DNA from: Ceratodon purpureus
Lineage: Eukaryota; Streptophyta; Bryopsida; Pseudoditrichales; Ditrichaceae
Direction of reading: 5' to 3'
DNA length: 64,000 nt
NCBI GenBank assembly: GCA_014871385.1
Contig: CM026426.1
Coordinates: forward strand, 87,322,852 to 87,386,851
The stretch's first letter is position 1, and each line of letters starts with the position of its first letter. Made by a program: the position numbers and the translations under genes. Under the pieces are notes generated by a model that ran no database searches, had not been told where the DNA came from, and saw only the letters and a program-made list of their open reading frames with translations. Of the stretch, positions 1 through 39,472 are shown piece by piece.

Positions 1-1430
1 AATCCATATATAATCAAAAAGCAATACCAACTGTACATAATGCAAGCATGTTTTGAACCATTGTAAAAAATTACCAATCCTTTTCATCTGAATAAAAAAA
101 AAATGAGTTCCCTATCCTGTTTAGTTTTCATTGAAACTCACACTGGGTTGGTAACCTCAACCCCATTCACAGTACACATTAAGGGTCATGGTTCTCCAAT
201 CCCATGTGAGTTATTAGAGCCATCATGGTGAATTCTTCTTAAGGTAAGAAAGAGCAGGTTTACCGAACCATATGGGGTTAACAATTTGGAGACTGAAGCG
301 CACTATCTATCTTTAAAGTAAATTCCTATAAAAAGTTATTTTCACTTTCTCACTACCCGAATCAGGTTCATAAAAATAAAATCAAAAAAGGGACAGTAAT
401 ATTTAACTCGCAATTCTTACAAATATTAATAATACCATTTAGTGATTCTGATATAACTCAAATTATTATTCCGTAATGAAAATAAAATTTTTGAATTGCA
501 GTATCTATGTACATACTTGTATATGAATTCTGAATTATCAAAATCTTTGAAATGGCATGGAATTTATTTGGAATAGAACTCTAATTCATAATTATACTGA
601 CATGCTGCAGAAGAATAATATGATGATAACATTTGCGTAAATATGTTCCCAATTAGAGTATAGTAAATTAATTTTCATTGCTTATAGTGTTTTCATATTT
701 GATGCTTTTGCAATATAATTGCAAACTATTATTTAAACTCCAATATTGTGTATTAAAATTAAATTTGTCTTTGAACAAATATTAATTTCATATATCTGGA
801 ATGATTATTATGTTAATTAGGATTATTATGTTAATTAAATTTGTAGACGTCTCATATTCAATTAATATTAATTTTTTTAAAAGAGATGCAGGAACCAAAT
901 ATTATACTTTCTTGTTATAAAGTAATAAATTTATACAAATATTTGCTTCGCATGTATATTTAATAAAAATAAAATATTTGCTTCATATGAATATATCATA
1001 AAAATACAAATTTATTAGTTTCAAATTAGAAGCAAATTTGTACGAAAATATTTGCTTCTCATGAATATTTAACGAAAGTTGTATCTTTGCTCCTTATTAG
1101 GAAGTAATAAATTTGTACGCAACTTTAATTATTTGCTTCTCATGAATAAATATAGAAATTCCAATTCCCTAGAAATTGTTAATAATTTTCCTAGTACTTA
1201 GATTGTATGCTTGCACAAGTGTCTAGACCATTACACATTATCATATGTTAATACTACAACAATCATGATCATAGATGTAAGAGGATTAATTTGAATCCAT
1301 AAAATGAGGATTGTATTTTTGGAATTATATAAAAGAGTGAAAAAAATTAAGTTCCGTTTTAGAATTTGATCAATTCGAAAAAGTATTGGTTAGGGTAGAG
1401 GTTTAAATTTCTAGGTATATATAAAAAAGA
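1..1430. other. AT-rich non-coding stretch with diverged repeats
   Basis: No credible gene is seen. Between about 940 and 1150 a degenerate motif close to ATTTGCTTCTCATGAATAT recurs four or more times with AT-rich spacers, interleaved with AAATTTRTACAAA-like pieces, so this is a decayed tandem repeat. The base composition changes abruptly near 1430, where the GC-rich leader of the next gene begins. Confidence 0.6.
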
Positions 1431-1994
1431 AATTCATTTCATCCCACGGGGACGGGGGATTGAACCCCGCGGTGACGGGGCCACGCGATTTGGCGGCGCG
1501 GTCACGGGCCCGTGCGAGGGGGAGGAACTAATCCCCACCCCGACCTCGTCCACGAAGGTGTTTGCTCCTTCGTTTCTCTGTGTGTGTCTGTGTCTGTGCT
1601 TGTTTTTGGGTGGTGGCGGGAGTGAATTCCATGAGAGAATGTGCACTACAGTGTGTTTCGCGCGAGTTTTGGGGGCGTCCTCTGTTCCGTTTGCTTCCTC
1701 CAAGGGGTGTGAGTTGTTTGTTTGAAGTAGTGTTGGTCTCTAGGGTTTAGGTTTATCTTGATGGTTTGAAGTGTTCGTGCGCGGAGGGAGTTCCAGGTGT
1801 TTGGCGCTGCGGTCTGCATTTGTTTCCCAATTCTCTTTTCCGTGTTCTTGTGCTGGGTTCTTCCTCCGTCTTTAGGGTTTAGGTTTATTTCGATACTTCT
1901 ATTCTTGTGCGAACTTCTTCGGTGCTCTGTGGAGGCGTGCGATTTGGATTGGGGTTTCTGGAGGCCTTGAAAACGCTGCTGCGCTAATTTTCAG
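1430..1994 (+). promoter_or_regulatory. Probable promoter and 5' UTR exon of the palindrome-loaded gene
   Basis: The sequence switches from AT-rich to GC-rich at 1430-1560, then becomes a pyrimidine- and TG-rich leader typical of plant 5' UTRs. Two telo-box-like copies of TAGGGTTTAGGTTTAT occur near 1741 and 1875. A good donor, CAG followed by GTGCGT, lies at 1994/1995 and can pair with the acceptor TTTTTTGCAG ending at 2717. The transcription start is inferred, not seen; ORFs in this leader are short and lack support. Confidence 0.45.
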
Positions 1995-2772
1995 GTGCGT
2001 AGCATATCGCTTTACAGGTTTCCTCTTCTTTCAGTTCAATTGCAGTGACTTTTGCGATTTAGGGTCTTCTCAATTGAGCTTTTTAGTTTATTTTCTCTTT
2101 CCATTATGAATCCTTGGCATGTTCTCGCTAGTTTAGGATAAGCATCCTGTAATTTTTTTAACGAATTCTGAGTTGTGTGTGTCTGTTTGTGTTCGTATTG
2201 TTTAGGTGATATGTGTGTGTCTGTCTGTGGTCGACTTCTGTCTTGTGTTTGTATTCTGGGTGTGTCTATTTGTGTTTGAATCCTGTGTTTCTTCGATGCT
2301 TGACTGTAATTGCTAGGTTTAGATAGGAATTCTCGTGTTATATGTTTTGGAATCAGAGTGCATGCATTTCAAGTGAATCTGAATCTGTGTTACGACTGTT
2401 TCTGCATGAGTGTCATTGCTGTGTGAAGAAATTTATAGGTTTTATGGATGAGGTGACTGCATTCAGATGTAGTTTGTGTTGTAGTTGAAGTTATGTTTAA
2501 TCACATCTTTTTCTGAATTGGGTACAATTTGGCGCCAATGCTCACATTCACATGTTTCACCGTATGCTTATTAGATCCCATTAGCTTATTATAGGAACTG
2601 TACATATGGAATCCAAGTTCATTTGTACTATTCACCCGTATTTTTCGGCACAATTCTACAACATTTTAATTATAGATGTATGTTCTGATCCTCTGCAACC
2701 ATGATTCTTTTTTGCAGGAAGAACAAATTTGACAAGACATTCCTTCCAGAAATTGAATAAATCCATCAAGAA

Positions 2773-5700
2773 ATGGCAGAGAGGTAACAAACCAAATGCC
2801 AATTTTGTATAAATCTCCATATAGAACGTCAACAATTTAGCTCGAGTCGAGCTAAACTGCAGCTTCCAAAAAAAAGTACAAAAACTGAATAAAAACAATA
2901 ATTTTGACACATTTAAACGAGAAAAATTCTGTTATACAGCCTTGCAGTTTAGCTCGACTCGAGCTAAACTGTAAGGAGCTTTGCAGTTTAGCTCGAGTCG
3001 AGCTAAACTGAACTGAACTTACAGCTAATCTGTAAGTTGTGAACTGTGGGAGCTCTGCAGTTTAGCTCGACTCGAGCTAAACTGCGGAGCACCTTACAGT
3101 TTAGCTCGAGTCGAGCTAAACTAGAGGTGTGACTCCCCTAATTTCCTAGAAGAGAAACCTACAGTTTAGCTCGAGTCGAGCTAAACTGTAAGTTCTCCCT
3201 TCTAAAGTCCTGGCAGTTTAGCTCGAGCCGAGCTAAACTGCAAGGGGATCATGGTGGGCGTCGAGCAATTTAGCTCGAGTCGAGCTAAATTTCTCAACTG
3301 CCTCAATGCTCCCCTTGCAGTTTAGCTCGACTCGAGCTAAACTGCTAGGATGCCCCGCATGATCCCCTTGCAGTTTAGCTCGAGTCGAGCTAAACTGCAA
3401 GGCTCCCATGCTGAAAGCCCAAGCAGTTTAGCTCGACTCGAGCTAAACTGCTGGGATGCAATCGGTTACTTGATTAATAGTATCAACATTTAGCTTGAAT
3501 CGAGCTAAATGGCTTTGAATTTGTCTAATGGTAAATGTGTCCTCCTCGCAGTGAGGAGAGAGCAAGGGTAACTGAGGCGCTACGACATTTCTTCAAGCCT
3601 GTTCCTATATCTGATTCAGATGACGATGACGGGGATGACTCAAGCACATACGAGCCGTGGACCTTCAAAGACCCCACGAAGGTCAAACATTGGACTCTGC
3701 GATGGGTTGCATACACCCCATATCTTACCTTCGCAACCATTTTCAAGGGAGAAGTCGATGATCCCGAGGTCATCGATATGGATACAAAGGTCACCGAGTG
3801 TGACAATAAGGGAAAAGACCAAATCAAGATCCTCTGCTCATCTACCGGGGCTAATCCATACCTCTTCTCCATAGTAGTAGACGTAGCGGAGAACCTCTTC
3901 GACCCCATTTCCTTAATGGAAAGTTTGTCCAATTCACCTTTCGAGGAGATAGTGTCCACGATGAGACAAGAAATACTGGACAAGAAATGGGCAACAAAGG
4001 ATGGACGAACTCTCGGGGCGAAATCCCTAGCGTGGAAACTGAGGAATGTTGTCTGCACCCTTGCTCTCCGCGCAACGGAGGCAAAGGTGAAGCAGAACCT
4101 CGGAAAATCTCAAGTTGACGTCTCTGGAGTGACAGCAACCGGGAGTCAAATGGGGAGCCAACAGACAGGACGCAGTAGGGGGAGAGCGATAGTTCCATCC
4201 CAAAGCCGAGGCGCTTCTGCAACTCCCACGCCCCACTCACCATTGAAGAAGAAAGGACTCGAGAAGAAAACTGACAAGCCAAAGCCCAAGAAGGACTTGC
4301 TCTTATCTGCAGAGGACTTGGCAACAAGTTTGAACTCTGTTCTCGGGGAACTCCCCAAGGTGAACAAGGCTGGAGAGATCCTGGACTTCGACAACGCCAA
4401 TCGCATTTACCAGAATTTCTTTTCTGATTGCCAGGACGAGTTCGTCTTCAAAACGAATGGGCAACCAAAGAAGTTCAGTGTGGACGTGACGCGGTGCAAG
4501 CCCGCACCGGCCGCATGGACTATCCGTGCATATGAGAAGCGGGGCATGGAGGAGATGAAGAATTACCTGGTCAACATGCCTGATAGGGGTCAAAAGCAAA
4601 CCCTGTGTCTGATGCCAGACACGAAGGCACGACCTCAACAGGAATCGGATCTGGAAGGCTGTGAATTCCACATCATCAACGGGCAACACAGCGTGGCGGC
4701 GTCCAAATCTCTCATCGAAGATAACGCCAGTGAGGAGTTGTTGAGGGACTTCAGGAGGTGGGATGCGTACATCGTCTGGACGAAGGATCATGATAAGCTG
4801 CGAAAAATCTCAGCATTCTATAATCGGGTGAACCATCTCGCACCCTTCAAGCCAACTTGGGCGAGCAATATACTTGCCGCTAGAAAAGTGTGGGAGAAGT
4901 ATGGTAAGCCCCAAAAGAAAAATGCTGCCGCTGGTGCTGCGGACCGCAGGAGTACAGGTCCGAAAAGTAATCCAGCGTCGAAGACATACGAGGTAACTTC
5001 ACTGATTCATTAGCATTAGCAGTTTAGCTCGACTCGAGCTAAACTTCCTGCAGTTTAGCTCGAGTCGAGCTAAATATTGATAGTCTTTTTCGTTTTCAAT
5101 ATTCTGGTATACCTCGATCAATTTAGCTCGAGTCGAGCTAAACAGTAGTTCCGAGACAGCATCATCTAAGGTTTCTTCTTGTGCGTATGCAGAACTTTTT
5201 GAATGCTATCAGGGAGCGCTTCGCTATGATCGATGTGGCGAAGCATCAAGCCATGGTGGCGAAGAAGGGAGGGAAGAACACTATCTCCCTAACAAACGAG
5301 CTGTTTATCATCACATCCAGTGATGAAACATGGACCTGTGGAAGGAGGGTGATCGCGTCTGCGGCATGTGGTGGACTCATTGATCCCGACAGCGAACCTC
5401 CGCATAAGAAATTCTATGAGAGGAAGGGGTTCGTTCCGGACAAGGATGGGACGCTTCCAAGGGAGTTCTTCAAATGGCTCGGGAACTTGACAGAGGCAGA
5501 TCACCAGAAGATGTGTAAGCACATCCTGCATAAGTCTGGGCCAAGTCGAAAGTACACATATCCGAAGGTTACCATCAAGCAGAATACGAGTGTATTGGAG
5601 GACTGCTACTCGGTCAAGGAGTGGGCGGAGCGGAGAAAACGTAAGGCTGTAGCTCAAGCGGAGTTCAACAACATTAATCCAACGCTCCATTTATTCAAGA

Positions 5701-8700
5701 GAGACGGCCTTGATGTACCCGCTTGGAAGCAGTTCAAGAAGACTTACTTTGTCTCTAAGGAGTCGAAGCACGTTCTGCTTGATTGGGATATTCCAGACTC
5801 GTACTGGACTAACTCCAGAGCTACAACAGTTCCGCAACAAGTCGGCCAAGGATATCTCCCCATATGCGGTTGAGTTTCTTTAAAACCTTCCTGAAGGTTT
5901 CGACATGCGTTTAAGTGTCCTTCAGCTGAGATGTGGTTCCTCCCATTCATCAGGGAGCCTCGACTCGCATTTCGGATCTTGGCCCTCCGATATATGGAGG
6001 TTGGCGGGCGGCGCAACTCACATTCGGAATCATCGACTACCGGTTCCCTCCCAACTACAAGACGAGGCAGAACTACCTTTGGAGAACCCCTTCTTCATGG
6101 AGTTTCTTCAATATGATCGAAGAGTATGGGCAGCCCCAGTTTAACGATGTTCGGCACTGGGCTTCTCATTTGCGGAGACGATGAGGACTTCGCCAAGGTG
6201 CTCACTTGGGTGGAGCGAACACCTTGAGTGGTCCGCAGAAGAGTCCATTCAGAGTATTTACCCGCTCCTAACGAGCGACTTCGGCGGACACCCCCCAAAG
6301 AGCAGAATCGCGATGGAACCCGTCTAAACTCTTGTTTCTCATTGATGATAATTTACTTGAGAACGAAGTGTCAACGCCAGAACCTCTGAGCGAGTACAGA
6401 ACTGCGGACCCCCACTGTACAAGGACAACAGGAAGTTTAACGAAAGGAGGTACGCAATGGATGGAGTCCATCCAAGTTAAGCTACCTGCAGGTCCTCGAC
6501 ACTTTCTGCAGTACTGGGAAACGAAGTCCCTCATAGCCGCCGCGGTAAGTTTCCACACTTTAGCTCGAGTCGAGTTGAATCGTTCCACTGTTTTTATCAC
6601 ATGCACCATGTATGCACACACTTCCACACTTTAGCTCGAGTCGAGCTAACCGTGTTTACCTTGTCTTTGTTTTCTTCAGATGCTCTCGATCTCGTCTTTC
6701 GTGGTCGCGGATGATAGTGACTCTCCTCATATGGTCGAAGCTCAGGCACTTGGATTAACTCTGGACCCAACCGATTTTAGTGTCGACGCTTATTTTGTCG
6801 ATAAGGAACGGTTTCCGGAATACGGCAGAGCCGTGCGGAAAGGGAAAGGCAGAGCTGCGGAGGAGGGTGACGATGTTGATCTGGAGGAGGATGCCCCCAC
6901 CGAGGAACAGACCCCCTCCCAGTGCTGCGGACATTAGCAATGAGAGCGATGCTCCGCCTTCTGATCCGGTAAGTCAGACAGCATCTGAGGGTAGAGTGGG
7001 GAGAAGACTCGAGTTTCCAGACGTCGACATTACACGTACGGACGATGAGAGACCGGGTTCTGCACCAGAGCTGGGATCCGGAAGTGGGAGAAAGACTGGC
7101 GCTGCGCGAAGTACTGGAAAGCCGGCTCAGAAGAAAAAGAGGGTCAATCCTCCAGCTCGGCAAGCCTCCCCGTTGGGGAGAGCCGCTCCCGATCCGGATA
7201 TTCAAGCTATTCTCGCAGAATTGCAGGCGTCCAATGCGAGGAATAAAGCATTACAAGATCGGATGGCACAGCAGGAAAAGGATATAGAGAAGACCGTGCA
7301 GGCGGCACTGCAGAATGTTCTGCAAGGCATGAGTAGTGCCACTCTTTTCCCGAATGCGGGTCCAGTTCTGCCCAATGTCCAGCCAATAGGTAGTGCCCTG
7401 CCTACTTCGCGAGTACTTGAGATTTTGGGCTCCCCTACTGGTGGTGCAAAATTGCCAGAGTTGGATCCGAGTCCCGCAGCAGTGCCTGAGCCAAGCCATC
7501 ATTCCACCGACCAGGTCATGCGTGACCGTAGTCCCAGTCCTCCCCGTTCTCCCTCCCACAATCAGACTCAGGGAGATGCTCCCGAGACATCTTCAGGTCC
7601 CTCCCAAACTTAGATTTTTTGAACTCGGAATTTTGTAGATGAGGTGTTAATACCGGAGTAGTTCACTGAAATGTGCATTTTGTACCAAAACGATTGTAAT
7701 TAATACAAATGGGCTGTTTAGCTCGACCCGAGCTAAACCGTTCAACTGTTTACCAATCCCGTCTATGTCAGCTTCATTGATCACTCTCTGATGATTCAAT
7801 AGTTCTCTTGCAATGCCCAGGTCACGAAGTGAATGAGGAAGTGGAATATCTTCGGGTCGTGGATGATGTTGTCATGGCCCAAACTGCGGATGAGACTGGA
7901 CGCACAAATATGGATTTAGATGTCACGGCCCAGTGCGCTCTGACCTTGCCAACGTGCGTAGAGGTCTTTCCTAGCGATCAACCTCAGAATTCATTAGGGT
8001 CGATGGGTCCTGTGGAGGATCGGGATGTTGTAGAAAGCCAAGCCGAGGATGCTCAGGTATTTCATCTATCATTATATCTCGTTGCACTATTTCCTTCGAG
8101 AATGACTTGCCTTGCAACTGTCCTTATTGTATCATTCGTATAACCCCGTCCTAGTATAATATAGTAATGTCCATCTGTCATCGGTATTTCCTCTCCAGGT
8201 GCGCGAGGCATCTGGATGTAACGTAAGTTCTAGTGAAGAATTGAGTCCTGTCCCGACAAGACCTCAGAGTGGTTGGTTGAACGTTGTCCTCGACCTTAAT
8301 GGAATACTCTGCTCCAGTACTCCTAATTGGCCTGGAAAATCATTCGTTAGCCATGACCTTAGCATCCACTCAGCGTCCAAGCCAGCAGTCGTGGGCCCCA
8401 AGCTTGTTTGTGTCAGGCCCAATTGCGCTGATTTCCTTCGTCGGTTGTCAGCATTCGCAACCATAACCGTCTGGAGTTCGATGAAGACTTCGACGACAAA
8501 AATGATCTGCGACTATCTGTTCGGTCCGATTCGTCCTGTCTATCCGCTCAGAATTCTAGGTCAAGAGGACTGTCAGAGAGTTCCTATGGGCGTAGATTTT
8601 CGAGGTCGTCCGATATATATGAAGGAACCCGGGACTCAGAAGGACATCTTCCTTAAGCCGATGTCCGATGGTCTCTTTCGTAAATTTGGTGGCATATATT

Positions 8701-10047
8701 CCGAGGCCAACACCATTTTTATCGACGACAGCCCGATCAAGCACTGTCAGAATAATTCTTACAATGTCCTTCTACTCTCCACTTGGAACAACTAGAATCC
8801 CGATGCCGCAGATGATCGTTTTTTGTTGTCGAAACTTTTGCCATATCTTGTAGACCTACACCACTTTGTGGGGACAATCGCTAGATTCAGGGCCGAGCGT
8901 CCGATCGGGAAGAAAATGTATTATGATGACCGTTCTACCTGTGAACAATACGCTAAGATTAATGAGGCAATTAGTCGTAGACCATAATTTCGCATGGTTC
9001 CGGTTCTCTACTTTGTGAATAGACATTTCATCACTGCCGCGCACCTATTAGTATGTTGTACATCTTAACCACTTGCGTAATCTTTGTATCCAAACTACTC
9101 CTTTTGTAATACGAAGATCATATTTCTTTCTTGATCTACTCTGCCCCTTGCGACGAACCCTTATCCATTGCTGAATTATTGGTGGATGTATGTTTCTATT
9201 CGCTTTGTGTATTGCAGGATAATGCATGTCGAGCCTCTGTGGATTCTTTGAATTATGCTTATGGCTGCGGGCCCTCTCTACGTAGCAGAGGGCTTCTGTT
9301 GCAATCCGTTGCAACAGCGCAGTCCACGATGGACTATTCAACTATGGCTGTCGACGAAGGGGTTGTGGACAGCCCGGTTAACCTGTCCGTTCCCAAGACC
9401 CTGAAATCCCCTTCTCCTATGTGGCCACGGACCGTACTGCATGTTCTATCTCCGAAACGACAGAGTTCTACCCCTACAAAGCGTGCTCTTTATAACAATG
9501 TGGTGGACATGCCGTCACCACCACCGGCAAAGGTTGGTTTTCATTCCTCAGTATTCACTCTTCATTCCTTTCTGATGTTTCATTCTTGTAAGTTTCTTTC
9601 ATGATGTTTCATTCTGATGTCTTTATTTTAGCTCGAGGCCACCTAAAATGATTGATCTTCTTATACTCTCGTGTAGGTCTAGTTGTAGCTTATGTAGGCC
9701 TCCTCGTTCAAGGTCCGTTCGACCTTTACAATTGCACTCAGCAGTTTAGGTCGATTCGACCTAAACCGAAATCTCTTCCCAATGCTAATTTATCCCCTTT
9801 GCAGATGCCGAGGCTGCGATCAACAACTACTGGATCCAGGGCAAGGAAGTCCGCCGACTCCCACTCTAAACCATCCAGTACCCGTCGCCACTCTCTGCCA
9901 GAGTCAAGCATCGGTGACAGGCGTAGGCAGAAGTTGCAACGTCTTCTTGATAGTCCAATGATGCAGGTTGAGGGAATGTCGTGGACACGTCAGCGCCAAC
10001 GGGAATTCGTCAAGTCAAGAATTGAGGCTTACGGAGGGACTCCATAA
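2773..10047 (+). CDS. Long spliced gene with ParB/DGQHR-like and HAD-like domains; introns full of palindromes
   Basis: I assembled this model from splice signals with matching phase. The start codon is at 2773 (Met-Ala-Glu), in a small exon 2718-2783. Later exons are 3552-4992, 5193-6544, 6680-7596, 7821-8056, 8199-9050, 9218-9532 and 9805-10047 (stop TAA). Intron phases are 2, 0, 0, 1, 0, 0 and 0, and each agrees on both sides. A poly(A) signal AATAAA lies near 10142. The product would be about 1,790 residues: a ParB/DGQHR-like region, a long disordered and coiled-coil middle, a HAD domain, and a basic Ser/Arg-rich tail. The frame is broken by indels in the third and fourth coding exons and by TAG 8793 and TAA 8985, so this copy may be a pseudogene or contain assembly errors. 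All introns but two carry copies of one 21-bp palindrome. I do not recognise the whole protein. Confidence 0.6.
2836..3509. repeat. Array of 12 palindromes in the first coding intron
   Basis: Twelve copies start at 2836, 2948, 2987, 3061, 3100, 3165, 3217, 3269, 3321, 3374, 3427 and 3489. Each has 10-bp arms TTTAGCTCGA and TCGAGCTAAA around a single G or C. Most extend to CAG...CTG, giving 13-bp arms. Copies at 3217 and 3489 carry substitutions. Six consecutive copies from 3165 to 3427 are spaced 52, 52, 52, 53 and 53 bp, close to five helical turns. Spacers are not identical, but some are reverse complements of each other: the CAAGGGGATCATG after 3237 returns as CATGATCCCCTTG before 3374. 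The whole array lies in the intron 2784-3551. Confidence 0.95.
3552..4992 (+). CDS. Exon with ParB/DGQHR-like region
   Basis: This 1,441-nt exon is fully open. It begins after CTCCTCGCAG and ends GAG before GTAACT. The N-terminal third is acidic (SDSDDDDGDD near residue 25), the middle is basic with KKKGLEKK and KPKPKKD runs, and the C-terminal third has the string FHIINGQHSVAASKS (around 4667-4711). That resembles the I(D/N)GQHRxxAA motif of ParB/sulfiredoxin-fold and DGQHR-domain proteins, which bind or process DNA or phosphate esters. The canonical Arg is Ser here, so activity is doubtful. The following helical segment ends at an acidic/Trp-rich patch. The family assignment rests on one motif and the surrounding pattern; a profile search against the ParB-like clan would decide it. 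Confidence 0.5.
5023..5142. repeat. Three palindrome copies in the second coding intron
   Basis: Copies at 5023, 5054 and 5122 match the same 21-bp unit exactly, with central C, G and G. All three fall inside the 200-bp intron 4993-5192 and none touches the flanking exons. Copies one and two are only 31 bp apart. Confidence 0.93.
5193..6544 (+). CDS. Exon with several frame breaks, function unknown
   Basis: The exon starts with AACTTTTTG after TATGCAG and reads NFLNAIRERFAMIDVAKHQ in phase 0. It stays open to 5873, but the natural-looking sequence moves to another frame near 5810 (SAKDISPYAVEFL). It shifts again near 5930 and 6005 (LTFGIIDYRFPPNYKTRQNY) and between 6180 and 6330. The exon ends at GCCGCCGCG before GTAAGT. 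Its length is not a multiple of three for a phase 0 to phase 0 exon, which itself shows a net indel. No domain is recognised. Either this copy is decaying or the assembly carries indels; reads or a transcript would separate the two. Confidence 0.4.
6559..6650. repeat. Two palindrome copies in the 135-bp intron
   Basis: Copies at 6559 and 6630 sit in intron 6545-6679. Each is preceded by the same TTCCACAC, so a unit longer than the palindrome was duplicated. Each has a degraded right end (GAGTTGAA and GAGCTAAC). Confidence 0.9.
6680..7596 (+). CDS. Exon: acidic, proline-rich and coiled-coil segment
   Basis: It begins ATGCTCTCG in phase 0 after TTTTCTTCAG and reads an acidic segment (GDDVDLEEDAPTEEQTP). 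A one-base shift in the run ACCCCCTCCC near 6906-6915 is needed to reach the frame that continues as PPSAADISNESDAPPSDP. A heptad-rich stretch around 7198-7310 (ILAELQASNARNKALQDRM) predicts a coiled coil, then Pro/Ser-rich sequence follows. The donor CAG|GTCCCT at 7596/7597 is phase 1 and matches the acceptor at 7820, so the TAG at 7611 lies in the intron. No known domain is seen; a scaffolding role is only a guess. Confidence 0.45.
7717..7737. repeat. Palindrome copy in intron 7597-7820
   Basis: One copy with a C-C-C centre (TTTAGCTCGA then CCCGAGCTAAA). It is intronic in the splice model, although an ORF-only reading would place it between genes. Confidence 0.85.
7821..8056 (+). CDS. Short acidic exon before the HAD domain
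   Basis: The exon opens phase 1 after CAATGCCCAG and reads HEVNEEVEYLRVVDDVV, then a Thr/Cys/Pro-containing linker to VESQAEDAQ. It ends at CAG before GTATTTC, phase 0, matching the 8198/8199 acceptor. It is acidic and low in structure and looks like a linker. Confidence comes only from the clean phases and open frame. Confidence 0.4.
8199..9050 (+). CDS. Exon encoding FCP1/NIF-like HAD phosphatase domain (DLNG type), two in-frame stops
   Basis: The exon encodes a HAD-superfamily domain of the FCP1/NIF kind. Visible motifs in order are WLNVVLDLNGILCSS (motif I in the plant DLNG form rather than DLDET), ADFLRRLSAFATITVWSS (motif II region), KDIFLKPM, and TIFIDDSPIKHC (motif IV DDSP). After DDSP the normal family tail is NxxxxxWxxxxxDDxFLxxLLPYLxxL. 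Here that tail continues in the same frame after a TAG at 8793-8795 (DAADDRFLLSKLLPYLVDL), so the stop replaces a residue, most simply CAG. A second in-frame TAA at 8985-8987 precedes about 20 more codons and a good donor, GTATGT, at 9051 in matching phase. DLNG-type members occur widely in plants; substrates are mostly unknown. Catalytic competence is uncertain. Confidence 0.6.
9218..10047 (+). CDS. Last two exons: Ser/Pro/Arg-rich C-terminus
   Basis: Exon 9218-9532 follows GTGTATTGCAG and reads DNACRASVDSLNYAYGCG, then a Pro/Ser-rich stretch (PKTLKSPSPMWPRTVLHVL). It ends at AAG before GTTGGT. Exon 9805-10047 follows CCCCTTTGCAG and reads MPRLRSTTTGSRARKS, then a basic Ser/Arg tail to the TAA. 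Both junctions are phase 0. The intron between them (9533-9804) carries two diverged palindrome copies. The tail resembles basic, possibly nuclear, C-termini, but nothing is recognised. It could instead be a separate downstream gene starting at 9805. Confidence 0.45.
9627..9765. repeat. Two diverged palindrome copies (hybrid and GGTC type)
   Basis: The copy at 9627 has the old left arm TTTAGCTCGA but a right half ending CCACCTAAA. The copy at 9745 has both arms of a new type, TTTAGGTCGA and TCGACCTAAA around T. Both lie in intron 9533-9804. A partial GGTC-type inverted pair (AAGGTCCGTTCGACCTTT) lies at about 9709-9728. Confidence 0.85.
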
Positions 10048-10141
10048 CCATATAGAGGATACTATGTACTGTATAGCAATGGCGCAGACAATATAGACGA
10101 TTATAAGACTCCTCTGTGTTATTTCAATGTAATTATGTTTT

Positions 10142-10148
10142 GAATAAA
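10142..10148 (+). terminator. Poly(A) signal of the palindrome-loaded gene
   Basis: GAATAAAAC follows a T/G-rich stretch about 95 bp after the TAA at 10045-10047. Spacing and composition fit a plant near-upstream element. Confidence 0.45.
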
Positions 10149-10355
10149 ACGATTGATCTGTTTGTCATATTTTCTCGTCTGCTATTTTTGCCTCATTGTC
10201 TTGCACACTTTTTGTGTTATTCAAGTTTCCAAATGTAATTTATGTAATTTATGGACATTGCCTTTTATTGAAACCTTGGTTTAGAAAAGGTAACGGATAG
10301 TTACTACTAATATTACAGGGGACGTGGTATATTCTTTTTCCTTGTTTATATTGCG

Positions 10356-10478
10356 TTTAGGTGTGATCGACCTAAATGACTTAATCATCATCTCTATTTA
10401 AACATGTTTTTAATGAATCAATGAACATTACTAAGTTTTCTCCTGTATGTTCGTGCATTTAGGTCCACTCGACCTAAA
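10356..10478. repeat. Two GGTC-type palindromes downstream of the gene
   Basis: Copies at 10356 (TTTAGGTGTG A TCGACCTAAA) and 10458 (TTTAGGTCCA C TCGACCTAAA) carry the new right arm and partly decayed left arms. They lie beyond the poly(A) signal near 10142, so they are flanking or in an extended 3' end. Confidence 0.8.
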
Positions 10479-11379
10479 TGACATGGGCCTCATTGTTCCT
10501 TTAAGGTGTTATTAATGATTCAATATTGATTTCCGCAAGATTGAAGTAAATGGGAGATGACGAATGTCGCCATTTCTCTGCACTCTGATTTCCCAAAATC
10601 AAGAATATCTCCCAAAATAACGAATATGGTGTTCCCATGGCTGGAAAGTCAACCCCCTTATTGTCATCACTGCCAGCGCCATAGCCACCACCCACATTCC
10701 CTCCATGAATCTTCTTGAAGATAAATTCAAAACCCCTCTTCCTACCATCAAAAATACCTTCAAAAATATTAATACTATTGCCATACATTACGCCATGTCT
10801 AACCTCCTCCACAAACGCCGCCTCAAAAACCACCAACCATTACCACAAAACCTCGACGCCCCTTAAGAATCCACTCTCACATTTCACCACATCTTTTACA
10901 CACTCTCCCTCCCCCTCTCTATGCATCCTTGCCATATTCATCCGCCTTTTTCTGTTCACTCTTCTTGCTTGTTGTCTTGGTTACCAGTGACTAAAGTGTC
11001 TACTCTCGAAAGGGGGGAGTAGATCTTTACTCTCATACCTTTGTCCTGTGGTCTCTTGCTTGGGGGTGGATCAAACAGACACTCTATTCACGTCGGTCTC
11101 CTCCGGAGTCCGAAGTTTCTCTCTCTCTCTGTGGGACATGGAATGATGTGTTATATGATTGTTGTGAGGGAGTAATTTAGTCATGCTTGCTTATGCTTGC
11201 TTATGCATCTTGAATGATGTGGATGTGGTTATTCTTACTAGGCTAAACAATGTGCATGTGGTTATTTCTAATGGACAAAATGCTTTGATTCAGTGACTGA
11301 TTCTGTATAAAATTGTTAATACTACTAATGAAGGTTTAAGATTTTGTTAGCCTACTAAAAGAAAGTTCAACATATTCAG
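10479..11379. other. Intergenic, no gene supported
   Basis: Open frames on both strands at 10501-10990 overlap each other and resemble nothing known. The plus strand is C-rich (ACACTCTCCCTCCCCCTCTC near 10900). I see no repeat or domain worth naming. Confidence 0.4.
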
Positions 11380-17966: not shown

Positions 17967-19285
17967 TTAAGATTTGAAGTGAGCCGGGGCCAGTGCTTGT
18001 GGATGGCGTTGGTGGAACTTTTCAAGCACATCCGGAGCATTTTGCAGATTTTCAGCTGATTCCCAAGAATTTTGTTCAGACCTGTACCCTTCCCAAGATA
18101 CCAAGTAATGTAGTTTCCGGCCTCGGCCTGAAAAATTTGGAATCAAGAACGTCGTGGACTTCCCATTCCATATCACATTCCGCAGGTATGGTTGGTGAGG
18201 GTGGCTTCTGTAACCGCCCATGTATTGTATCTTGTCGATATTTTTCCAGGAGTGACACGTGAAAATGTCATGAATCCGGATGTTCGAGGAAGCTTAAGCT
18301 TGTATACTACATCTGATAACTTTGAGATGATCGGAAAAGGCCCTAAAAACTTAGAAGCCAACTTCTTTGATGGTGACGTGGTCGGTATCTTGGCGTGGCG
18401 CAACAATACTTTGTCGCCCACTTGAAAGTTTGGTTGAAGCTGAAACCCACGGTCGTAATTTCGTTTAGCTTGATCCGAAGCAATCTGCATCATGATTTTG
18501 ATTTCCTCATGGATTTCCTTTAAATGTTGGATTCTTTCCTCCGCAGCCGGAACTGTTGACGAAGTTGGTGTGTCAAATGATAGTTGTGGAAGGTATCCAT
18601 ATGTCGCATAGAATGGGGAGAATCCTGTGGCGGAGTGGACAACATTATTGTATGCGAATTTTGCCAAGGGGAGTAATTCTGACCAATCATCTTGGCCGCG
18701 AGTTGTGAACATGCATAAAAATTGTTCGAGTATTTGGTTTGTGCGTTCCGTTTGACTATCTGATTGAGGATGGAATGCCGTCGTAGGACAAGGTTCAATT
18801 TGAAAAAGCTGACATAATTGTCTCATGAATTTTGAAATAAAAACCGCACCCCTATCTGAGATTATTTTGTCTAGCGTCCCATGGTGTTTGTAGACGTGCT
18901 GAAGATACAACGTGGCTGCTCCCTTAGAATCCACCGTTTCTGTTGTTGGAATGAAGTACGCCAATTTGGTGTTATTGTCGAACACCACCATGATGGAATC
19001 AAAACCACTACTTCTTGGTAATTTGACAATGAAATCCGTCGTCACCCTTCTCTAGGGTGCTTCAGCAGCTCGGATTGGTTGTAGAAGGCCATAGGAGCCA
19101 TGACGTGATGCTTTGAATCTTTGGCAGAGGTTGCATCCATCAACATATCGATTAGTATATCGCCGTAATGTTGGCCAGTAAAGCGTTCGAGATACCAACT
19201 CCACCGTTTTTCGCATGTCGTGGGTGGCCCGTGGCCAGGGTTGTCATAATAGACGGACGGGCCATAAAATTGTTGTGTAGTCACG
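17967..19285 (-). pseudogene. Ty3/gypsy pol fragment: integrase plus chromodomain
   Basis: Reading the minus strand from 19284, a frameshifted copy of the integrase zinc-binding region comes first. The main ORF from 19045 is the integrase core: the first Asp in TTDFIVKLP, FDNNTKLAYFIPTTE, the second Asp in IISDRGAVFIS, and the catalytic Glu in SDSQTERTNQI. A GPF/Y-like module follows (KLASKFLGPFPIISK). A further frameshift near 18170 leads to the chromodomain (LHYLVSWEGYRSEQNSWES), which in such elements guides integration to heterochromatin. Gag, protease, reverse transcriptase and the 5' LTR are missing, so the element is truncated near 19285. At least two frameshifts make it inactive. Confidence 0.88.
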
Positions 19286-26703: not shown

Positions 26704-29700
26704 ATGGATCCGGTTGAAGCGGTTGAACCGGTTGAAGTGGTTGCTCCGGTTAGAGCCATTTCGAGACTCGGTACAAGAGAGTGGGCACCATGGTTTACGG
26801 TCAAGCTCAAGGAAGGGTCACTGTCAAATAAGGAAGCCCAATGTGTGTATTGCAGGACCAAGCTTTTGTACGTGAAGTCTAGGTGCCTTCAGCATTATGG
26901 TTGGGACTAGCCTAATCTCTCGAGGGTTTGCCAAAAGGCGCCTACCGTAGTAAAGAGGAAGTTTCAGTTTTGCGCTGGAAAGATTCCCGGCCCTTTGACA
27001 CAGGAGGAGATGGATGGTACGAGGCGAACATACCCCGCGTCAGTTCAACGTCCGTGTTCCAATGCTTCCACACACATCACTGTGTACGGTGGATCCGAAC
27101 CCTCATACAATGATACCGAAGAGGACCGAAATGTCTCCAGTGCTGCACCTAGTAGGGCCGGTTCGAATACCATTAGGAGCTTGCGGCAATAGGACATGAG
27201 TGAAGCACTCCAGATCTCCAAGTGAAAGGAGCTGGACATGTTGTGGTCATCCTTCTTTTACGAAGCCAACGTCGCAGTCAACGTGGCCAAGCACCCAGCA
27301 TTTATAAAGGCGGTGAGCACAACGTCGGCTGCCGGATTTGACTACAATCCCCCTTCCTATAACGCGATGCGAACAACGCACATCAAGGAAAAAAAGAAGC
27401 AAGTCAAGGCAAAGATTGATGAACGTACGAAAACTTCGACCGAGTTATACGGGGCTACCATTTGCTCTGATGGTTGGGATAATGTGAATCGCCGACCGTA
27501 GATGAATGTCATGCTAGTATGTCTGGCAGGCGGTGTATTTCTTGGGTCTGTTGATACGACCGGCGAGAAGAAGTCAATGGGATACATTGCAGGGGAGATG
27601 AAGAAGTATATTCGAGAAATTGGCCCTCTGAATGTTGTCCAGATTTGTATGGACAATGCAAGCAACATGCTTAGCGCCATGGATAATATCCTAGAGGAGT
27701 ATCCTCACATGTACAAGCAGGGATGTTGTGCCCATATTCTAGATCTTCTTATAGAGGACTGGGGCAAGGAACGCTTTGTGAAGGATTTGGTTGCCAAAGC
27801 TAAACACGTGTGTCATAACATTCGGAGACATCATGTTCCTATGGCCCTTTTCCGCAAATTTGAACCCAAGTTGTCCTTGGTGGTTCCCGCTGAAACCAGA
27901 TTTGCTTGTAACTATCTGATGATAGCGCGCCTTATGGAGGTTAAATTTTCTTTGGAGCAAGTGGTCATGGCATCGGAGTGGTTCGAGTATGTCGACGGTC
28001 TATTCAACCAAACCGAGGGGGTGCGTAATCATGCACGCGCAAGCCTAGTGCGTCAAACAATTCGTGATGATGGATTCTGGCATCAGTGTGACAACTTCAA
28101 GCACCTGGTGAAACCAGCCCTGGTAGCACTCAGAACGTTCGATGGAAACCAGCCGGCAATGGGCAAGGCATGGGTTACAATGAGCAACCTAAAGGACCAC
28201 GTGTACAGTCTCCGAGGAGACCCTTGCTTTTTCCCACCGGTCATGGCAACAAAGATGGAGAGGCAATTCGACCGTAGATGGGACATGATGCACACCAATC
28301 TTCATTATGCCGTGGCGCTCTTGAATCCCTGGTGCAAAAAACATAAGGGCTTATAAGCCATAGGAGAAGCGAAGGCGGCTCTCAATCGGGTGTTTTGTCA
28401 GGTGGGTGGGCAAATGGGAATTCCATTTGCCGTTCTTATGAAAGAGATGATCGAGTTCGACGAGGAACGTGGCCCTTACAGCCCCGAAGTGACCATCGAT
28501 ATCAAAGGTTTGAATCTGGAACCCCATCAATGGTGGCAGAGGATTGGAGGAGGGCCCTTGGCAATCATTGCGAAGCGCATTTTATCTCAGGTCTGCTCCG
28601 CCTCATCGTGTGAACGGAATTGGAGCATGTATTCGTTTGTCCACAACAAGGTACGCAACCGCCTGGGGTTGGAGAAGTCTGAGGCCTTGGTGTACATTTA
28701 TACGAACAGCAGACTCCTCCGTGAACGCCCAAAGCCCAACCCCCTCAGATGGTACGAGAACAATGCATGGTCAGAGGAGTCAGATCAGGAGAGAGATCCA
28801 AGCGAAGAGGACGGAGATGACGACAATCATTACATACCAGTTGACTACGCAGACGGTGGGGATGATGATGTCTGGGGACATGATAACGATGACGTTAACA
28901 CGAATGGGCACAACGACAGTAATGGCAACGGGGGAGATGACGCTAACCGCAACAATCCTCGTGACCACAACAACCACGATGATAACGGTGATGTGTACGA
29001 CTTCAACAATGAACGAGAATAGAACCAAGGAAACCCGGACATGAAAATCTACGGAGACGAATAACCCACACTCCCGGTTTTTGATGAAGCGGCTAATGCA
29101 GAAGAAAGAGACGCACGTGACGAAGGAGATGCTATTCTAGTCCATATCAATCCCGATAACAATGACGGGGTTGCGGATGATTCATCTAGCGAGGACCATC
29201 TTGGCAACGATATCCATGCTGGAGATGATGACGAGGAAAATGACGAAGGGGGTGATGGAAGTCATGGACGGGCTGCAGATGGACCTCATTGGACCGGTCT
29301 CGTTAGTGGGGAGGGCAACTGGGGAAGAGGTTCGGCACAAGGAGACTCAAGCTTGCTTCAAGAGATTCCTCCAGCTCAGGAGAGAAGGACCGTTCACGTA
29401 ATCCTTGCACAGACTATGCCTCCATCGCAACCCACTGATATGGGGGGTAACAAAGCAAATACAATTGTGGATGGAGGCCTGGCTCGAAGGCCCACGGGTT
29501 CAATGGACGCAAAAATAGCTCGACTCCTTAGATCATCTGCAGCGGCGAGGCCTCCACTGATTTGAGCTGGTGGTAGTCAACGTGGTGCCTCCACCGTCAA
29601 CCAAGACGCCGTGGCGCCAGCTAAAGACGACGCCATACAGAGTGTGGCCCAGCGTGGTGCAAAGAAGTCCACAGACAGGGTTGTTAGGAAACCACCATCA

Positions 29701-38414: not shown

Positions 38415-39472
38415 CAACTAGGCCGACAGTTGGTATGACCCTGAAGATCTGTCTAATGGGCTCGAGAGGGTGCCTATCCTTGTTGGTCAGTCTGATATTG
38501 CTATGCGTTATTTTCAGTATGTGAACTCTAGTATGGTCTATGACCAGGCCTGGGTACCTACCATCCTAGAGATTTTCCGCCTCGGGGACTACTGCTTGTG
38601 TTCCTCGGAATATCTCCGTGGGATGGTACGTGTGCATGCCAAGAGCAGTCCCTAGGTGGAGTCGGCTACAGCGATGGAGGACTTCTGGAGGACATGGCTT
38701 TTGATCAATTCAACACCGGCGATGCTAACTACTGTAAGAAGGGTTCAATGTGTCTAAATGGAAATGAAGTTTGTGAAGGTCATGTGCCTCGCCCATTTGT
38801 TAAGGAGTGCAATGTTAAGTGTAGGTGTCGTGGTGATTGTGGGAATCGTGTTGTTCAGCAGGGGATGAAGTATCGAGTAGAGGTTTTTCGTACAGCCCTT
38901 ACGGGATGGGGGATTCGGACATGTGAGCATATACCTAGAGGTGCGTTTGTTTTTGAGTTGATGGGAGAGATTTTAACCAATGCTGAGCAAATGTTTAGAA
39001 ACTCGGGGGTAGATGGGGGTCAGTCCTATAGCTTGCAACTCGATGCTGATTGGGCCACAGAGCGGAATTTGGACGACAACAATGCATTGTGCTTGGACAG
39101 TGCTCGATTTGGAAATGTTGCCAAATTTTTGAACCACAGGTTAGAGTCTGATTCCATTTTCTCTACATCGGCCTCCCCTTCCTTGTGTCCAATTCAATGT
39201 GACCTGGCCGTGGGCCTTTGTCCTACAGGTGTGAAGATTCTAACTTAGTGGACATTCCAGTGTCAATAGAGAGTGTTGATCGCCGATATTACCATGTGGC
39301 ATTCTTTGCTAGTCGAATTATAAATCCTGGAGAGGAACTAACATGGGATTATGGCACAGACTTTTCTAAAGAAGATCCAGATTTGCCTAAATGCAAAAGT
39401 GCTAAGTGTAGAGACGGTACAATACCACTTGCAGTCCGAAAGCCCCCCCGCACACCGCGTAGGAGTAGATGA
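38415..39472 (+). pseudogene. SUVR: SUVR-type SET-domain methyltransferase fragment
   Basis: Coding sense begins near 38420 (WYDPEDLSNGLERVPI) and enters a pre-SET-like Cys region (DYCLCSSEYLRG). It then needs a one- or two-base shift near 38620 to reach the next frame (GTCACQEQSLGG). The SET part is clear: FVKECNVKCRCRGDCGNRVV, then TGWGIRTCEHIPRGAFVFEL, MGEILTNAEQ, LDADWATERNL, GNVAKFLNHR. Across an 89-bp intron (39140-39228, phase 2) it continues CEDSNLVDIP and PGEELTWDYG. These are the SUVR1/2/4 landmarks, including the NHRC and WDY catalytic motifs. The post-SET region keeps only part of its cysteines (KCKSAKCRDG). The N-terminal WIYLD half is absent. Histone H3K9 methylation is the family role; this copy looks truncated and frameshifted. 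Confidence 0.75.

Follow-up and report, generated by a model that had tools for sequence, protein, structure and literature searches.

Palindromes at the locus

The window analysed here, which is the whole 64-kb stretch C6:87322852-87386851 on the V sex chromosome of the moss Ceratodon purpureus (362-Mb genome), contains 22 palindromes of 21 bp at 2836..10478, in the places first noted in an initial annotation. The block that they form is the right part of a DNA transposon, 19.1 kb long and bounded by terminal inverted repeats, that codes for a DUF7869 protein, a protein with a predicted ParB fold (modelled at 1,253 aa) and a NIF-type phosphatase. A scan of the window with the pattern TTTAG[CG]TCGA-N-TCGA[CG]CTAAA returned the same 22 copies with up to 3, 4 or 5 substitutions, and none outside the block within the window at up to 5. 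Twenty copies lie between coding exons, in groups of 12, 3, 2, 1 and 2, two lie in the 3′ flank, and none of the 22 falls in the coding exons of the predicted splice model. On the number, placement and absence elsewhere in the window, the rescan agreed with the initial annotation. The confinement to one block is true inside the window only: the element runs 8.5 kb further left, where it carries 8 more sites (≤3 mismatches).

The first group occupies intron 1, or the leader, of the ParB-fold gene (2784..3551, plus strand), with 12 palindromes of 21 bp at 2836, 2948, 2987, 3061, 3100, 3165, 3217, 3269, 3321, 3374, 3427 and 3489; local tandem repetition with a spacing of 52–53 bp is evident within this array. 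Also on the plus strand, intron 2 (4993..5192) holds three palindromes (5023, 5054 and 5122), intron 3 (6545..6679) two (6559 and 6630), a spacer or intron at 7614..7821 one (7717), and the intron at 9533..9804 two (9627 and 9745). The spacers 8057-8198 and 8988-9217 of the window copy hold none. The remaining two palindromes, for which no strand is assigned, are subterminal and of a GGTC type, at 10356..10376 (degenerate) and 10458..10478.

The palindrome block is a transposon

The window copy of the element spans 19,107 bp (C6:87314378-87333484). Its right 10,633 bp occupy 1..10633 of the window (plus strand), and its left end lies outside, at G000:C6:87314378. The limits were obtained from blastn comparisons, which reveal a shared block between copies with unrelated flanks. 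A 27-bp inverted repeat (left form AACACCATATTCGTTATTTTGGGAGAT) bounds this block, at the right end in the window copy and in three other copies (E1, E2 and E3) and at the left end in E1 and the window copy; the E2 match stops inside the left part, and E3 was retrieved in part. The right repeat of the window copy is at 10607..10633 (minus strand), and is followed at 10634..10637 by the target-site duplication CCCA, which matches the left flank, CCCG, at 3 of 4 positions. Copy E1 is flanked by TTGT on both sides. Ten further copies were retrieved, two of them without the left repeat and one without the right; in all seven with both ends found, perfect 4-bp duplications could be read off by eye (TGGA, ACCT, ATCA, AAGA, ATTA, AAAC and ATTA). 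At the insertion site of E1 there is a gene resembling a Harbinger-type transposase (L005:727-1068; HTH_Tnp_4, E 0.04, below the cut-off).

Genome-wide, 392 element ends (192 + 200) were found at ≤3 mismatches, compared to none for the control. Twenty-three exact end pairs, hand-picked as neighbours 17–20 kb apart, span 17.6–19.9 kb, other neighbouring ends being further apart. Open reading frame 1 (ORF1), the second exon of the ParB-fold gene, was scored in 87 copies among 680 candidates, and 65 of the 87 are without an internal stop. The 392 ends with inverted repeats, together with the target duplications, rule out a host gene that carries an array of its own. The initial annotation had reasoned that a transposon-like repeat would scatter and that this one is tied to a single gene; this argument is not supported, since the block itself belongs to a transposon that has about 196 end pairs on the autosomes and the V chromosome.

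Arrangement of sites along the element

The complete window copy contains 30 sites at ≤3 mismatches, 22 of them at a distance of 3.9–7.8 kb from whichever end is nearer. Most of the non-coding stretches of the element contain sites. Starting from the left end, three sites of the GGTC or a mixed type are found at 520–830 bp, and a five-site array at 3.9–4.1 kb lies directly upstream of the start of the DUF7869 gene, which is oriented opposite to the ParB-fold gene. Onward from there, twelve sites precede ORF1, followed by those in introns 2 and 3, the spacer site at 7717, the intron 9533-9804 and the right end. The subterminal sites are conserved in position, with distances constant within about 15 bp: the left GGTC or mixed sites are 505–520, 659–674 and 815–830 bp from the end in all eight copies with a recognised left end, and the right sites are at 176, 278, 886–889 and 1004–1007 bp in all nine recognised right ends.

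Distribution of sites in the genome

About 4950 palindrome sites are present in the genome at ≤3 mismatches, compared to 3 for the reversed pattern, which rules out a chance origin. Of 20 end stretches, 17 have a recognised end; over these, the element part (33,014 bp) holds 60 sites and the flanks (45,503 bp) hold none. The three others, one of which has 2 sites, were set aside. Of the first 50 sites in the genome listing, 49 lie in copies E1, E2 and E3, the exception being C1:15616582. A second sample was drawn from the 139 exact sites with a central A or T. Again, 49 of the first 50 placed belong to the family: 41 have a scored ORF1 within 3 kb or an exact end within 20 kb (compared to 1.8% of random places), 7 more are in diverged copies identified by blastn, and one (L038) adjoins a relative of ORF2, the third exon of the same gene, that is 53% identical over the compared part. 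The fiftieth (L037) is solitary. This sample is biased towards ORF1, because the A/T-centred variant often sits just before it. The two samples share 2 sites and thus comprise 98 different sites, on which the claim of family membership rests.

The palindromes are therefore both scattered through the genome and linked to one gene family, because they are parts of a transposon. The genome-wide search (≤3 mismatches) thus supports a gene-linked array, although the tie to a single gene is lost.

The exceptional site of the first sample (L046; G000:C1:15615900-15617200, palindrome at 683) appears, from a reading of the translation, to lie in an intron of a host gene of the FHIT/HIT family. A half-site remnant is found ∼70 bp from this palindrome, and the locus has otherwise no similarity to the element.

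Genes of the element

The ParB-fold gene is modelled with four coding exons on the plus strand. Exon 1 (2773..2783, 11 nt) is the least certain part; its marker is found with 3 mismatches in E1 and was not found in E2 or E3. Exon 2 (ORF1, 3552..4992) encodes the predicted ParB-N fold in its C-terminal third. Exon 3 (ORF2, 5193..6544) is open in E1, with the frame lost in the window copy after about 5873, and exon 4 (ORF3, 6680..7613) is the last coding exon. The marker for the intron 2/exon 3 junction was not found in E3. In E1, the four exons (11+1441+1374+936 nt) join into a frame of 1,253 aa with a single terminal stop, separated by GT-AG introns of 650, 200 and 136 nt. This splice model, read from the DNA, has support short of proof. 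Should exon 1 prove to be wrong, the array of 12 upstream of ORF1 would lie in a leader or promoter and not in an intron; similarly, 7614-7821 may be a spacer between genes, not an intron.

The ParB N-terminal fold of ORF1 derives from a predicted model (mean pLDDT 70.5) with a Foldseek match at low TM-scores. ORF1 has NGQH at the position where ParB would carry GERR. Pfam scans of the element proteins found neither a helix-turn-helix nor ParA above the cut-off.

Downstream on the same strand, the exon at 8199..8987 encodes a NIF/FCP-type phosphatase (PF03031), with an early stop in the window copy at 8793-8795. It is preceded by an exon at 7822..8056 and followed by one at 9218..9532, both with boundaries drawn from the open frame and GT/AG alone, and by a last exon at 9805..10047. 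The DUF7869 protein matches PF25273 in E1 (Pfam, 1.4e-41) and has many invariant Asp and His residues; it is the probable transposase of the element, although its structure model is poor and has no clear match to any transposase.

Another frame of the element (L005:7322-8056, 245 aa) appears by eye to contain an internal repeat of ∼75 residues in two copies, and has no Pfam match. Upstream of the ParB-fold gene, the element also contains, at 937-1165 of the window, a 39-bp A/T-rich repeat (AAATATTTGCTTC...) in four imperfect copies. The rest of the window contains an Integrase/Tf2-type fragment (18176-19045, minus strand), a DUF659 frame (27502-28356, plus strand) and a SET-domain frame (38598-39248, plus strand).

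Related elements carry their own palindromes

Of 1761 candidates, 48 were scored, and these include a single close copy, a relative of the DUF7869 protein with 58% identity at C3:53134-55974. It belongs to a sister element (C3:16058 to 56825) whose ends are related to those of the main family and which is flanked by a perfect duplication, AAAT. Its two halves are separated by a long stretch, probably an insertion, and the element was read outside C3:25501-38500, 13 kb of that stretch. The gene order is the same as in the main family, with identities of 58% for DUF7869, 27% for ORF1, 32–36% for ORF2 and 37% for NIF. The palindrome of the sister element, TTCAACTCGA-N-TCGAGTTGAA, differs from that of the main family and stands at matching gene positions: as an array upstream of the DUF7869 start, as seven sites before ORF1, and as further sites between ORF1 and ORF2, after ORF2, and before and after NIF (splice sites inferred from the reading frames). 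All 21 genomic sites within one mismatch of this palindrome are inside the sister element (C3:17399-53076). At ≤2 mismatches there are 38 sites, compared to 1 for the reversed control; 3 of the 17 two-mismatch sites are in the sister element and 14 have the form of site 6559 of the main family. Beside the sister element, a reading frame (L047-L049 reversed, 1183-2148; about C3:56853-57818) has a GNHR motif and, judged by eye, may belong to the ParB/sulfiredoxin group.

A third form, TTCAGCTCGA-N-TCGAGCTGAA, occurs at 8 sites each (≤3 mismatches) in the corresponding spacers of two contigs with ORF1 relatives of 32–33% identity. These contigs (L015 and L016) are filed under an uncultured Synechococcales (cyanobacterial) genome, yet carry intron-split relatives of the transposon genes, and are therefore probably eukaryotic contamination. 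In Ceratodon, WTCAGCTCGANTCGAGCTGAW is matched exactly once and with one mismatch 14 times, and at L038 one TTTATCTCGA-N-TCGAGATAAA stands beside the main form. Altogether, six arm variants are present as perfect palindromes across the compared stretches.

Palindromes can also be detected in relatives whose predicted proteins read past an exon end. This is the case for 12 of 32 ORF1 relatives in public data and for 14 of the 120 listed ORF2 relatives (127 found), with none for the reversed control in either set; the palindrome is encoded in one or another of the three frames, always near the C-terminus. Among the 120 listed DUF7869 relatives (166 found), one has the motif, near the N-terminus.

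Proposed function and alternatives

We consider it likely, by analogy with the VANC proteins of VANDAL transposons, that the palindromes are recognition sites, specific to each family, for a dimeric protein that the element itself encodes. Each palindrome, with its two-fold symmetry, would be bound by a homodimer of this DNA-binding protein, and the binding would mark the DNA of the element as self. Most likely this would prevent the host from silencing the element promoters and so keep them active, the role that VANC has in VANDAL, with a possible added role in helping to bring the ends together for transposition. The likeliest candidate for the binder is the fast-evolving ParB-fold protein, since ORF1 differs most between the main and sister families (27% identity, compared to 58% for DUF7869) while the site differs too, which is weak evidence in its favor. 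Symmetry that outlives sequence change, the privacy of the site to each family, the placement at gene starts, in introns and near ends, the local repetition and the case of VANC21 together make anti-silencing or promoter activation by such a dimer the most likely function, although the binding protein, its dimeric mode and the anti-silencing are all inferred. A dimeric protein-binding array, one of the roles put forward in the initial annotation, thus stays the leading proposal.

The symmetry itself can be followed in the arms. Among 324 seeds consisting of one arm (both strands counted), 313 are paired with a second arm that agrees at no fewer than 7 of 10 positions. In the right halves of four copies, the palindromes diverge by 0.9–3.5% compared to 2.4–8.4% for the remaining intron sequence, and are lower in all six pairs, although the sample is small, these pairs are not independent and the intron 1 array is represented by one site.

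Several observations weigh against binding by an element-encoded dimer, the limits of this divergence test among them. Sequence profiles did not find the ParB fold in ORF1, and no DNA-binding domain scored above the Pfam cut-off in ORF1 or ORF2. Of 89 strand hits with a variant first arm, the second arm has the same variant in 38, the main form in 11 and neither in 40; the arm test is also partly circular, since site searches favor palindromes and the stretches were chosen for holding sites. A joint change of both arms would likewise be required by RNA hairpins. Finally, two of the sampled sites (L037 and L046) are solitary and outside any recognisable element.

A possible, if rather unlikely, alternative is that the sites serve transposition only, with the DUF7869 protein binding all palindromes in the manner of the subterminal repeats of En/Spm or Ac. 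The near-constant distances of the GGTC and mixed sites from both ends are consistent with such a function. The bulk of the sites in the window copy (22 of 30), however, are 3.9–7.8 kb from the nearer end, and the site differs between the main and sister families even though the DUF7869 protein is the best conserved of the set (58%).

We regard it as unlikely that the palindromes act as RNA, folding into pre-mRNA hairpins through which the element would regulate its splicing, its retention in the nucleus or its production of small RNAs. The location of 20 of the 22 window copies between coding exons and the frequent joint change of the arms are consistent with this idea, and by eye the one-arm changes at 3489 and 6559 leave a sense-strand G-U pair in place. 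Pairing is lost through other one-arm changes (at 3489, 5023, 5054 and 6630 in E3), and a loop of a single base would be awkward for RNA. Furthermore, hairpins may not account well for the sites within about 1 kb of both ends or for the array that lies upstream of the DUF7869 gene, which runs in the opposite direction; a promoter or leader, not an intron, would be expected there.

A more specific model, which we consider quite doubtful, is a transposon-borne ParB-parS-like system in a eukaryote. In this model the ParB-fold protein, which may be gated by a nucleotide and may be linked to a degenerate methyltransferase-like region in ORF2, would load at its own palindromes, spread as a clamp and either keep the element unsilenced or pair its ends, and protein and palindrome would co-diverge into private pairs that do not cross-react.

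Finally, it is improbable that the palindromes are tiny functionless repeats spreading in the tolerant non-coding DNA of the element, as the two solitary copies (one in the intron of a HIT-family-like host gene) and the tandem spread at 52–53 bp in intron 1 might suggest, given their agreement in gene position between three lineages whose letters differ, a divergence below that of the introns, and just 2 solitary copies among the 98 different sites sampled.

Comparison with known systems

The closest parallel to binding by an element-encoded dimer is VANDAL21 of Arabidopsis. According to the main text of the two reports, VANC21 binds a family-specific motif in the introns, intergenic and terminal non-coding regions of VANDAL21, tandem repeats are found upstream of VANA21 and within VANB21 and VANC21 introns, and the motifs of the related VANC6 are different (PMC5735166, PMC10398659). 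The VANC21 motif is YAGTATTAY, 9 bp, and the string "palindrom" does not occur in the main text of either report (PMC5735166, PMC10398659). The moss element is similar: a motif specific to the family is present in its introns, in its intergenic and terminal non-coding DNA and upstream of a transposon gene, local tandem repetition is rapid, and a related family has another motif. It differs in its 21-bp palindrome, its candidate DUF7869 transposase, its 4-bp duplication and its candidate protein with a predicted ParB fold. VANDALs are Mutator-like, with a Mutator-type transposase, a 9–10 bp duplication and a protein that binds the motif and takes away DNA methylation. No Pfam match to a Mutator-type transposase domain was found in the 8 scanned element frames of copy E1, and VANDAL membership fails on both the transposase and the length of the duplication (4 bp).

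CACTA elements have CACTA ends and a 3-bp duplication; the moss element, with AACACC ends and a duplication of 4 bp, does not belong to them. Repeated subterminal sites for element proteins are known in CACTA elements (TNPA sites) and hAT elements, and the moss element too has repeated sites near both ends. In contrast, its sites are mostly far from the ends and mostly intronic.

With ParB-parS and Noc, the moss element shares a palindromic site, a (predicted) ParB N-terminal fold and several sites per replicon. The parS site is about 16 bp, and ParB carries GERR. ParB also binds and hydrolyses CTP, recognises its palindrome through a helix-turn-helix and has ParA as a partner. The moss element is a transposon, not a plasmid, and neither ParA nor a ParB-type DNA-binding domain was found in the Pfam scans. 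The presence of a predicted ParB-fold protein adjoining palindromic arrays nevertheless makes a ParB-type clamp in a eukaryote a testable question.

Within the literature searched, a group of moss transposons with DUF7869, a ParB-fold protein and private palindromes appears to be new. It also cautions that "gene-specific" intronic repeats may be parts of transposons. The working principle, as judged by analogy, has a precedent in VANDAL/VANC, and the mosses would provide a second, apparently independent case of transposons with private self-recognition sites through their non-coding DNA. If true, this bears on whether sequence-specific anti-silencing is a general strategy, and the at least three site variants (main, sister and other organism) are open to a comparison of cross-binding.

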